Below, piece by piece: positions 16,565 to 19,563 of a DNA stretch of 40,870 nucleotides. The DNA is from Hyphomicrobiales bacterium (lineage in GTDB: Bacteria; Pseudomonadota; Alphaproteobacteria; Rhizobiales; Beijerinckiaceae): NCBI GenBank assembly GCA_028290405.1, contig JAQGJX010000095.1:1-40870 (forward strand), read 5' to 3'. Both the position numbers and the translations under genes were made by a program. The first letter of the stretch is position 1. Every line of letters starts with the position of its first letter. The notes beneath the pieces are model-generated. The model saw nothing but the letters and a program-made list of their open reading frames with translations. It was not told the DNA's origin and did not search any database.

Positions 16565-16732
16565 TGACGGTGCGCGCCACGCCATTCTCGTGCGAGCGCC
16601 CCGACGCTGAACGGCGGACCTTGCGGCGCCCGCCGCCGCAAGCGCGCGCGCCGGATGCTGGCGAACGAAACGGCGTTATGCTAAACGTAATTCCGTTGCG
16701 TTCGTTTGTAACCAGACCGGGAGCGCGTGACC

Positions 16733-16978
16733 ATGCTGGAGTTCAAGCCTCTCCTGTCGGCCAGCCATTTCGTCGCGCAGGTTCATCGCATCGAACGGGA
16801 AACCGCCGTCGTTCCGCATCCCGTCCAGCCAGGCGCCGTCGTGACAGTCTCGGCAAGAGCGGCGGAGTTGGCCCTGGCCTCGGCGCAACAGGACCCGCGC
16901 TGGTCGCAGGCGCTTGATGAAAAGCGCAAGCGCAGATCACTGGATGTCGTCATAGAGCGGATGCTCGGCGTCAGCTGA
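16733..16978 (+). CDS. Small hypothetical protein, 81 aa
   Basis: A small soluble protein ending in a strongly basic helix (D-E-K-R-K-R-R-S-L-D-V-V-I-E-R-M-L). I recognise no family. An in-frame GTG lies at 16727 but only 3 bases from the GGGAG; the ATG at 16733, 9 bases away, is the better start. The S-A-R-A-A-E-L-A-L-A-S-A-Q-Q-D segment looks helical. The gene is convergent with the HWE kinase. The evidence for coding is the ribosome-binding site and an uninterrupted frame only. Confidence 0.5.
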   Translation: MLEFKPLLSASHFVAQVHRIERETAVVPHPVQPGAVVTVSARAAELALASAQQDPRWSQALDEKRKRRSLDVVIERMLGVS

Positions 16979-16980
16979 TC

Positions 16981-17003
16981 CAGCGGGCGAGCGCTCGCCG
17001 CTG
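16981..17003. terminator. Hairpin between convergent genes
   Basis: The stretch centred on GGCGAGCGCTCGCC, extended by CAGCG/CGCTG with one bulged G, can fold into a strong stem directly after the stop at 16978. There is no T-run. It could end transcription from the plus strand or separate the convergent transcripts. Confidence 0.35.
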
Positions 17004-17061
17004 AGCGCATGACGTCGCAAGCACGCCTCTCCTCGCGCGGCCAGGCGGGGGATGATGGCCT

Positions 17062-18120
17062 TTACCCAGTAAGGCTGTCCGGGCGCATGCGAAGGGAGGC
17101 GATCAACCCTTCGCTGGACCATTCATAATCGATCGAACCGCCCAAGCCGCGCATGCTTCGCTCAATGAGCTTTGATCCGAAACCGCCAGGCCCCAAGGTG
17201 GCCGGCGCAACGGCAGGTCCGCCCCGCTCCGTCCAGACGACTGTCACATCGGCGTCGCCGGCCGTGCACGAGACGTCGAGCAGGCCCTCGCCGACAGAGA
17301 GCGCCCCGTATTTCACCGAGTTTGTCGCCAATTCGTGAATGGCCAGCGCCAACGAGGTTGCGGCGTTTTCTCCCACGCCCATGCGCGGCACAGCCACGCG
17401 AACCCGTCCGCTGAAGGCCCCCTGGTCGTCATAGGGGGCCAACAAAACGGTGAACAGATCCCCCAGCAGCGCCGCTCTGCCGTCTGATCTGGGAAGCGGC
17501 CTGACCAGATCATGCGCGCGCCCCAGGGCGGTCAGGCGCTCCGTCAGCTCCCGCGCCATGTCCTTGGTCGAGGCCGCCGACCGGGCCGTCATCGTCGTGA
17601 GTCCCGACGCGATGGACAGGAGGTTTTTCACGCGGTGGCTCATTTCGCCCGCCAGCAGTTCGTGGCCTTCCTCCGCCTGCTTTCGTCCGGTGACGTCCAG
17701 AAAGACGCCGAACATGTTCCCGCGCACGATCGCGTCGTCGTCGCCTTTGCCGCGCGCCGAGATCCAGCGCACGCTCGTCCCCAACATGATCCTGAAGTCG
17801 ATTTCGTAAGGTCCGACGATGGCGCGCGTGGCCGCAAAGGCCGCACGGACGCGATCGCGATCCGAAGGATGAATATGGGCCGAGAGATCTTCAAAGGTCA
17901 CAGTTGCGTCGCTGGGCACTCCCCATAAGTCGCACCCCCGCGAATCCAACTTAAGCTTGTCGGTTTTGACGTTCCAAGCCCAGAGGGCGACTCCAGCCGC
18001 TTCGATCGCGAGGTTCAGTTGGTCGGCGCTCCAGCCGGCGGGCTGGCTTTGGCGATTTGGCATGGGAACCGAGCTCTGTTGGGCGAGCATCGCCGTGTGA
18101 GGGATCAGGTCAGAGGCCAC
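17062..18120 (-). CDS. PAS domain HWE-family sensor histidine kinase
   Basis: 352 residues, no membrane segment. A PAS domain occupies about 33-147 (L-A-I-E-A-A-G-V-A-L-W-A-W-N at its start, D-V-T-G-R-K at its end). The dimerisation helix holds the phospho-acceptor H162 in E-M-S-H-R-V-K-N-L-L-S-I. The catalytic domain has the features that name the HWE family: H262 in the N-box (H-E-L-A-T-N-S-V-K-Y-G-A-L), W296-x-E298, and the G-box G-F-G-S-K-L-I-E-R. It is therefore a complete kinase. The longest frame starts with GTG at 18120; ATGs at residues 11 and 20 are alternatives and none has a strong ribosome-binding site. Its upstream neighbour, 100 bases away on the same strand, is an ethylene-receptor-like protein lacking exactly this ATPase domain. 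No response regulator is in the window. Confidence 0.9.
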   Translation of the reverse strand: MASDLIPHTAMLAQQSSVPMPNRQSQPAGWSADQLNLAIEAAGVALWAWNVKTDKLKLDSRGCDLWGVPSDATVTFEDLSAHIHPSDRDRVRAAFAATRAIVGPYEIDFRIMLGTSVRWISARGKGDDDAIVRGNMFGVFLDVTGRKQAEEGHELLAGEMSHRVKNLLSIASGLTTMTARSAASTKDMARELTERLTALGRAHDLVRPLPRSDGRAALLGDLFTVLLAPYDDQGAFSGRVRVAVPRMGVGENAATSLALAIHELATNSVKYGALSVGEGLLDVSCTAGDADVTVVWTERGGPAVAPATLGPGGFGSKLIERSMRGLGGSIDYEWSSEGLIASLRMRPDSLTG

Positions 18121-18220
18121 GAAGCTCTTGGTCGAGGACGCTGCAATATGACCTTACACCTATTGCGCCGCCGCGACCGGGATGATCGCCATAGCCGCCC
18201 CCGGAAGCGGCTGGGAGCCG

Positions 18221-18859
18221 CTACTGAGCAGGCGTCATAAGCTCGCGACCGTCGGCGAGGCCCTGCAGTTCTGCGTACCTGGGCTCCGCCTCGCGGTAAC
18301 GCCGCGTGAGTTCAGCCACGACCAGTTCGACGCGGGCGAGCGCCGCGTGCTCCGCCTCCGTAGCTTTGCGACGTTCGACCCGCAGCGCGGACGCCATGAT
18401 CTGCAGCTGGTTTCCCAGCTGGTGGTTGATCTCCCAGACCAAAGCGTCCTTTTGGCTCGTGCGGAACGCAACTTCCCGTTCCAGGGACGCGCGGCGCTCG
18501 GCGGGGGACGGCAGCTTTTTGATGCGAGGCATCAGACAAACCAGGATCGCCGCCGTCACGATGGACAGCACCGCGCACGCGCTCTTGAGCGCCGCCTCCA
18601 GGGGCGTGTGCTCAAGCGTCGTGAATGGCATCTGGATCGCATGCACGAGGTGGGTCAGCCCGCAGGCGGTGATGAACGCGGCGAAAAGCCCGATGAGCCA
18701 TGGAAACGGAAGGTCTTTGATGCGGTCCCGCATGAGCACCGCCATGCCAACGGGGATGGCGAAATAGGAAGCCGCGATGCCAAGATCGCCTGCCAGAACC
18801 AGCTTGCCCAAAGGGGACATCGCGCCGCAGACTTCGGCGAAGTCGGTGAACAACCACAT
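18221..18859 (-). CDS. Ethylene-receptor-like membrane sensor with phospho-acceptor helix but no ATPase domain
   Basis: 212 residues. Three membrane helices (about 19-43, 53-77, 88-110) match the ETR1-type ethylene-binding domain. Residues known to matter for copper and ethylene binding in plant ETR1 (D25, Y32, I35, P36, I62, C65, H69) are all present here as D25, Y32, I35, P36, I63, C66 and H70, the last two in A-C-G-L-T-H-L. A coiled region follows, then a HisKA_2-like segment with H146 in E-I-N-H-Q-L-G-N-Q-L-Q-I. The protein stops at 212, with no HATPase domain; only 100 bases remain before the next gene, so a frameshift cannot supply it. That next gene is a complete PAS-HWE kinase. Bacterial ethylene-receptor-like proteins are known in cyanobacteria and in Azospirillum. 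Ligand binding here is inferred from residues only. Confidence 0.82.
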   Translation of the reverse strand: MWLFTDFAEVCGAMSPLGKLVLAGDLGIAASYFAIPVGMAVLMRDRIKDLPFPWLIGLFAAFITACGLTHLVHAIQMPFTTLEHTPLEAALKSACAVLSIVTAAILVCLMPRIKKLPSPAERRASLEREVAFRTSQKDALVWEINHQLGNQLQIMASALRVERRKATEAEHAALARVELVVAELTRRYREAEPRYAELQGLADGRELMTPAQ

Positions 18860-19068
18860 TGTGCGAAAATCCGGGTGCAGGGCACGGCGAGCAACTGCGC
18901 TAACAGCAGGGAGATCGGCTTGGCGTTACAAGGTTTACCGCGTGTCACAACGTCATCTTGGCATAGTAGTTGCCCGAATCGCGCGCCGGTGAAACACGAG
19001 AAGCGTGCGTGCAGCCTCTTTCTCGGCACGATAGCGGACGCATGTCGCGCCCACGCATGGCCCCAGAA

Positions 19069-19563
19069 CTAAAGCCTGCCAGATTGGCGCATTCGCTGCG
19101 AGATCCATGCGCCGGCCGCCAGGCCCAGCGCGAGCGCGCCGTACGTGAGCGCGATGGAGCGCGTCGGCAGCACCTCCTCCCATCCGGGCGTGAAGCGCTT
19201 GGGCGCGACGCCATAGTCGACCACCGCCGCGACGGCCGACATCACGACTGCGTCGCCCAGCAATCGCGCGGGCGCGCGCGGCGGACGCTGGGCCAGCCAG
19301 TATTCGAAGGGCAACGCCCAGAACACCGCGGAGGCGTGATGGGTGGCGTAGCCGGCGAGCGTGTGGGACGCGTCGGCGCGCGTCACGCGGCCGGCGCTCT
19401 CGCCGTGAAGCCAGTGGCTCGTGGAGTTGGTAGGCTGCAGCGCCCCCTTGCCCTCCGCCCGCGCCAGCGCCGCCAGCGCAGCCGTGGTGACGAGGCTTGC
19501 GGTCGTGCCGGACACCAGCGCCGAAAGGCTCGCGCGCGCCCACGTATCGCCGAAGTTTCCCAT
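19069..19563 (-). CDS. Predicted membrane protein, 164 aa, unknown function
   Basis: Several hydrophobic stretches are visible (about 12-33, 70-86, 100-118 and 133-152), which suggests a four-helix inner-membrane protein with a longer polar loop near 38-65 (S-T-S-H-W-L-H-G-E-S-A-G-R-V-T-R). I do not recognise the family. The ATG at 19563 is preceded by GGGAG about 7 bases upstream; the frame opens further to 19593 but without a better start. The protein lies between the ethylene-receptor-like gene and the lytic transglycosylase on the same strand. The H-x-x-A-G-Y-A-T-H-H-A-S-A segment (about 67-78) with paired His residues could be functional. Confidence 0.65.
   Translation of the reverse strand: MGNFGDTWARASLSALVSGTTASLVTTAALAALARAEGKGALQPTNSTSHWLHGESAGRVTRADASHTLAGYATHHASAVFWALPFEYWLAQRPPRAPARLLGDAVVMSAVAAVVDYGVAPKRFTPGWEEVLPTRSIALTYGALALGLAAGAWISQRMRQSGRL

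Follow-up and report, generated by a model that had tools for sequence, protein, structure and literature searches.

The bacterial ethylene receptors described in the literature we consulted are single-chain kinases. In AzoEtr1 and SynEtr1 a three-helix ethylene-binding domain with seven ligand residues is joined to a kinase domain in the same chain (PMC11819568, PMC6682694); AtETR1 is reported to need the seven residues in order to bind ethylene, and they are present in AzoEtr1, the first 130 residues of which bind ethylene as a glutathione S-transferase fusion (PMC11819568). Here we describe a gene in contig JAQGJX010000095.1 of a Hyphomicrobiales bacterium whose 212-residue product has the same kind of three-helix domain with the same seven residues but, unlike these receptors, continues into a HisKA_2-like hairpin and has no ATPase. 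The window analysed is the entire contig (C221; 40,870 bases) of a 4.07 Mb assembly. In the available text returned by our literature searches on ethylene receptors, no ethylene domain joined to a phospho-acceptor alone was met.

Spo0B and ChpT, which are soluble, have no sensor domain and retain a degenerate ATPase-like domain, are among the proteins with which the output half can be compared. They are, as the sensor is proposed to be, kinase-derived dimeric phosphotransferases (both are named in PMC5898713). Caulobacter PhyK is described as a phosphotransferase that is active in vivo despite mutated ATP-binding residues, and its donor is MrrA, which is charged by HWE and HisKA2 kinases (PMC5964349). 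Sphingomonas PhyT is described as membrane-anchored, with an HRxxN hairpin and a degenerated ATPase, and it relays phosphate from SdrG to PhyR as well as retaining PhyR at the membrane (PMC5898713). The window sensor resembles PhyK, PhyT and PhyP (the latter two from Sphingomonas melonis), which serve the alphaproteobacterial general stress response, in having a putative HisKA2-class hairpin with a His and an Asn at +4, and would share with them a function independent of an ATPase; PhyT is also a membrane protein, and PhyT and PhyK are fed by HWE/HisKA2 kinases through a single-domain receiver. It differs in having no ATPase whatever and in its input, an ethylene domain. The CheA3/CheA4 pair of Rhodobacter sphaeroides also places phospho-acceptor and ATPase on separate proteins, but belongs to the chemotaxis class and its partnership has been shown biochemically, whereas the window sensor has only a candidate kinase partner (PMC3591291).

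An ethylene-binding domain on a hairpin without an ATPase

An ETR1-type sensor had been predicted here from the letters alone, and that prediction holds. Residues 18–115 match ETR1_N (PF25487; 1.1e-22 by Pfam), and the seven residues D25, Y32, I35, P36, I63, C66 and H70, which, following the list in the original prediction, we take to be the ethylene-binding set, are all present. The prediction had also placed a HisKA_2-like helix with H146 behind the membrane domain, and no ATPase; H146 is where it had been put (codon 18422–18424), the chain stops at residue 212, and no HATPase match is found in it by Pfam. The hidden Markov model search that had been proposed as a check recovers the ethylene-binding domain, with a HisKA_2 match that is sub-threshold in the window protein and over the cut-off in its orthologue (25.9 bits). 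In NCBIfam the window sensor matches only PhyK (NF051872; 22 bits over residues 134–189, against a whole-protein cut-off of 750), a model on which the full-length kinase of genome G429 (see below) scores 98, and we regard it as a hint of class only. There is no match in a PHROGs search.

An AlphaFold2 model from 31 sequences (mean predicted local distance difference test score, pLDDT, 87.4; predicted template modelling score, pTM, 0.61) has helices at residues 16–43, 53–79 and 86–114, which we read as the three membrane helices, followed by a continuous helix at 119–165 that carries H146 and a last one at 168–202, which together we read as a dimer hairpin. The pLDDT is 92–94 across residues 141–190 and 81 across residues 191–200. 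Coordinates of these features, together with those of the adjoining kinase gene, are in Table 1.

Table 1. Features of the sensor gene and its neighbour in the 40,870-base window
Feature	Position	Strand	Basis
Sensor gene, 212 residues; ethylene-binding domain and HisKA_2-like hairpin without ATPase	18221..18859	minus	Open reading frame, Pfam, orthologue
Ethylene-binding domain, residues 1–115, with the seven ligand residues	18515..18859	minus	Pfam ETR1_N, AlphaFold2 helices
Linker helix, residues 116–140	18440..18514	minus	Alignment; predicted helix 119–165
HisKA_2-like putative phospho-acceptor hairpin, residues 141–198, with H146 and N150	18266..18439	minus	HisKA_2, predicted helices, pN/pS 0.35
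Intergenic stretch, sensor stop to listed kinase start	18121..18220	minus	Consensus scan
PAS-HWE histidine kinase, complete, 352 residues	17062..18120	minus	Pfam, residue check, orthologues

Conservation and frequency of the short form

A single clear orthologue of the sensor was found among 101 genomes (the window's own counted), in genome G007 of the same genus (L003:1477-2091, minus strand); the same match is on contig JAUXWZ010000064.1 of a Beijerinckiaceae metagenome-assembled genome. The orthologue is 204 residues long and 60% identical, ends within a few residues of the end of the window sensor, and shares with it all seven ligand residues, H146 and N150. Over 203 aligned codons the rates of nonsynonymous (dN) and synonymous (dS) change are 0.36 and 1.55 by Nei–Gojobori (NG86) counts, and the ratio of the nonsynonymous to the synonymous proportion of differences (pN/pS) is 0.40 in the ethylene domain (bootstrap 0.29–0.54) and 0.35 in the hairpin (bootstrap 0.21–0.55), where synonymous change is saturated. 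Among five segments compared, the H146 helix has the highest identity (70%), and the second helix of the hairpin has a low one (46%). Both halves are, by this measure, under purifying selection, and because the orthologue is equally truncated the short form is conserved and not decayed; nor is it a chance product, given 60% identity at a pN/pS of about 0.4. The pN/pS values and segment identities indicate that the hairpin, above all its first helix, has been kept without an ATPase. Near the G007 sensor there is no significant match to an ATPase remnant; the window has a single significant match, to the neighbour's own ATPase.

The short ethylene-hairpin form is present in two of the 51 genomes of the genus; four others have a chain of ethylene domain and HisKA-type kinase by motif reading, one of them ended by its contig end. 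A two-row profile returned 34 loci, and by frame length only the one on the G007 contig (L041) is a short form; a single-protein scan of genome contigs found nothing. No further short forms were recognised in overlapping samples of the family (397 genomes; here among the matches listed, with weak ones only partly represented), order (397), class (385) and phylum (398), judged mainly by open-frame length and leaving out the short frames of G292 (C62, 164 residues) and G634 (C31, 101 residues with one TAG).

Several candidates proved to be of other kinds. The frames of L070 and L074 are broken inside a kinase, that of G326 (207 residues) continues into a HisKA-type kinase and is cut off where its contig stops, and G332 (215 residues) encodes an ethylene domain with no hairpin, like the proteins of G177 and G267. 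A fifth, in G501 (195 residues), looked like an ethylene-domain-only gene, and its frame continues beyond stops into kinase and receiver pieces.

Probable origin from a single-chain kinase

The next-best matches to the sensor in the 397 family genomes are in G429 (4e-33) and G197 (9e-31), each with ETR1_N, HisKA_2 and HATPase_c on one chain by Pfam. A tree of the ethylene domain (74 rows, 114 columns) groups the two short sensors with this pair with support of 92/91, which is just under the star level of the tree tool. The tree and the residue table were made without L070 and L074 and without three duplicates (L003, L075 and L084), while L070 was retained in the structure alignment; 62 of the 74 rows have the full set of seven ligand residues. 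The tail of the sensor also aligns with the single-chain ethylene-HisKA_2 kinases, with shuffle z of 8.8 and 8.2 for the window protein and 12.7 and 10.4 for its orthologue (8.8 and 12.7 being those to G429), and a linker motif starting SPA or SPR is common to the short forms and the G429 and G197 proteins. These two kinases, the nearest to the sensor by the tree, differ from it in having the full ATPase, an Asn in place of Asp at position 25, and a linker that is longer by seven residues. Both short forms are thus one heptad shorter in the linker than their full-length kin, a loss that, to judge from the alignment, could preserve register toward the hairpin. The comparison supports the view that the short sensor most likely arose through loss of the ATPase from a single-chain kinase of the order ethylene domain, HisKA_2, HATPase.

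A putative ATPase-free phosphotransferase or phosphatase

By analogy with PhyK and PhyT, the reading that we favour, and to which we would give about an even chance, is that the sensor is an ethylene- and copper-gated histidine phosphotransferase or phosphatase derived from a single-chain kinase that lost its ATPase. The ancestor would have had ethylene-binding domain, HisKA_2 hairpin and HATPase in one chain, and its autokinase activity would have gone with the ATPase. Within the three membrane helices, copper is probably held and ethylene bound by Cys66 and His70, and the continuous helix leading from the membrane would convey the state of the site to a dimeric hairpin that carries H146. On receiver proteins this hairpin would most likely have histidine phosphotransferase or phosphatase activity, phosphate presumably being carried on H146; the likely donor is a receiver of the single-domain kind, itself supplied with phosphate by HWE/HisKA2 kinases, possibly including the neighbour. 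The original prediction had proposed that an ATPase-less sensor would need phosphate from outside or would act as a relay or inhibitor, and this part of it stands; the HWE neighbour that it had cast as the other half is weakly supported in that role, as discussed below.

Several results weigh against a phosphotransferase or phosphatase. The short form is known from two genomes only, both of them fragmented assemblies and one metagenome-assembled, and the branches joining the short pair to G429 and G197 are long (0.89 and 1.68) in a tree of only 114 columns. The HisKA_2 match of the window protein (residues 143–174, 18.5 bits) lies below the gathering cut-off of 22.3, and its hairpin motif is HQLGN and not HRxxN, that of the orthologue being HRLGN. 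In NCBIfam the orthologue ties between PhyK, PRK13559 and a LovK-type model at 22–24 bits, and neither a sequence search of PDB nor Foldseek against PDB gave a useful match to solved structures. Finally, PhyT is encoded at the phyR locus, and in neither genome was a response regulator or receiver gene recognised next to the sensor, by Pfam on the neighbours and by reading of open reading frames (no genome-wide search for phyR was made).

A wider proposal is that an ethylene receptor kinase was turned into an ATPase-free phosphotransferase or phosphatase and so wires a plant hormone signal into an HWE/HisKA2 stress-response relay; this is tentative, and we think it rather more apt to fail than to hold. 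If it were true, ethylene could direct the flow of phosphate instead of initiating it, and the small protein would be suited to studying how an ethylene domain moves its output helix.

Alternatives and the adjoining PAS-HWE kinase

Binding without any phosphate transfer is the first of two unlikely alternatives. The hairpin would dimerise or sequester a receiver, so that a pathway is inhibited when the ethylene state changes. PhyT, which retains PhyR at the membrane besides transferring phosphate (PMC5898713), offers a precedent, and the residue following H146 is Q in the window sensor and R in the orthologue. Set against this are the presence of H146 and N150 in both orthologues and the position of the H146 helix as the most conserved segment.

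The other unlikely alternative is a split kinase, in which the adjoining PAS-HWE protein phosphorylates H146 in trans or forms a mixed dimer with the sensor, so that a single ethylene receptor kinase would be built jointly from the products of both genes. The neighbour had been predicted to be a same-strand PAS protein with an HWE ATPase domain, and it is: HWE_HK (57.2 bits) and PAS_3 (31.2 bits) are both over the Pfam cut-off, and H262 and W296-x-E298 are present. It is one of nine HWE_HK proteins identified in this genome. The gap of 100 bases that had been reported applies to the listed GTG start, in-frame ATGs further in giving 130 or 157. Close spacing on one strand favours a pair, as does the lack of a sigma-70-like promoter or terminator-like site between the genes by consensus scan, though that scan was empty across all of 16700-19300; the RNA fold of the intergenic stretch is ordinary (z -0.10). 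Split kinases do exist, as in CheA3/CheA4, and 1556 of the 42417 HisKA proteins in SMART (3.66%) are reported to have no HATPase (PMC3591291). The neighbour, however, is complete, with a phospho-acceptor of its own at H162 (in EMSHRVKN), and needs no second hairpin. The likeness of this hairpin to the sensor tail is weak, with shuffle z of 2.7 for the window protein and 7.1 for the orthologue, in each case lower than to the single-chain ethylene-HisKA_2 kinases.

Linkage of orthologous pairs, which the original prediction had proposed to survey, was not found. The sensor of G007 is flanked on one side by a pair of TctC-like genes (by Pfam, one over the cut-off at 40.6 bits and one just under it at 23.3 bits) and on the other by a Tad/vWA run, with no kinase among its neighbours, and the G007 kinase orthologues (65% and 64% identical) are on other contigs (C133 and C96). 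At E 1e-60 or better, five of the 51 genomes of the genus have an orthologue of the kinase, in six copies of at least 64% identity including the window's, and the stretches read around the five others show no adjoining sensor. We took it as the mark of a split kinase that the genes for acceptor and ATPase stay next to each other across genomes, and this was not seen. Three genomes have the kinase and not the short sensor, and in two kinase-bearing genomes, G035 and G004, there is no ethylene-domain match at E 1e-10.

Co-occurrence nonetheless hints at a partnership of the two proteins: both sensor genomes have the kinase, as against three of the remaining 49 in the genus (Fisher p 0.008, with no correction for kinship). 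Kinship itself may explain this: by rnpA (Ribonuclease_P; 62–72% identity) the six closest relatives of the window's genome include G007, and of these seven genomes, the window's counted, two have both genes and five have neither at the cut-offs used. Co-occurrence thus points weakly to a possible partnership, which linkage does not support, and the kinase may be a mere neighbour. We consider an in-trans kinase pair less likely than a phosphotransferase or phosphatase.

A different input with the same hairpin output, the module sensing another gas or the state of copper, seems to us quite improbable. ETR1_N is found also in phage contigs, with a gene for glycosyl hydrolase 108 nearby, where a role for ethylene is not obvious, but all seven ligand residues are in both copies of the sensor, as in most other ethylene-domain rows. 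A decaying remnant of a full kinase is the least credible alternative and very improbable indeed, for while homologues that carry the ATPase exist, which is one half of a sign that the original prediction had named against itself, the other half, decay of this copy, is contradicted by equal truncation in two genomes, pN/pS far under 1 for ethylene domain and hairpin alike, and the want of any ATPase remnant behind the G007 sensor.

Split receptors and other ethylene-domain loci

An arrangement closer to a split receptor was seen in another lineage. In three genomes of the class sample, G676, G573 and G445, an ethylene-domain-only gene (140, 138 and 135 residues) overlaps the following histidine kinase gene, which has HisKA and HATPase, with a weak dCache in G676 and CHASE3 in G445. 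The last is the weakest case, with ETR1_N at 47.6 bits, an Asn at the D25 position and a very long branch. Within the family of G676, nine of 99 genomes have ETR1_N, in 10 matches, seven with frames of 137–153 residues and three with frames of 558–568. All seven short frames have a large same-strand frame close behind or overlapping them, and six (G1169 being the exception) have all seven ligand residues. Four downstream frames were checked by Pfam: HisKA is present in G676, G1191 and G1225, whose frames end at the locus ends, and G1183 has PAS only; G1227 and G1206 are 65% and 98% identical to checked ones. In all, the arrangement was seen in two further genomes and, within this one alphaproteobacterial family, in seven of the 10 ETR1_N matches (L128:4391-6528, L127:4693-7156, L129:4332-6175, L133, L135-L137 and L139-L141), and receiver genes lie behind the kinase-like gene in L127 and L128. 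These pairs of ethylene-domain-only protein and membrane kinase fit the imagined split receptor better than the window pair does, and their occurrence in several genera suggests that the ligand domain can be a separate subunit.

Ethylene-domain-only proteins with no hairpin are encoded in three genomes of the window's family (L108:5236-5850, L109:5676-6233 and L107:273-917), with no kinase gene recognised beside them from the starts of the open reading frames; the two that were checked score 115.7 and 110.7 bits by Pfam and have Ser in place of Pro36. The G501 locus mentioned above (L126:3465-5297) has ethylene domain, HisKA-type core and receiver in one stop-interrupted frame, and is either a broken gene or an effect of assembly or recoding.

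Four viral contigs with 126-residue ETR1_N proteins containing CGLSH were found, of which three were checked (L149:3932-4309, L150:4998-5375 and L151:4998-5375; Pfam 66–67 bits). The nearby glycosyl hydrolase 108 gene was identified by Pfam in L149 and L150 and by reading in L151. A similar protein (68.7 bits) is encoded at a bacterial locus with phage-like neighbours (L110:3453-4061), and an ethylene-like domain is within a 285-residue frame amid phage-like genes in G428 (C34). Lastly, L073, L009, L010 and L011 encode single-chain ethylene-domain kinases with HWE-type motifs, by reading, in the kinase part, and ethylene domains may have joined kinases of the HWE/HisKA_2 class more than once.
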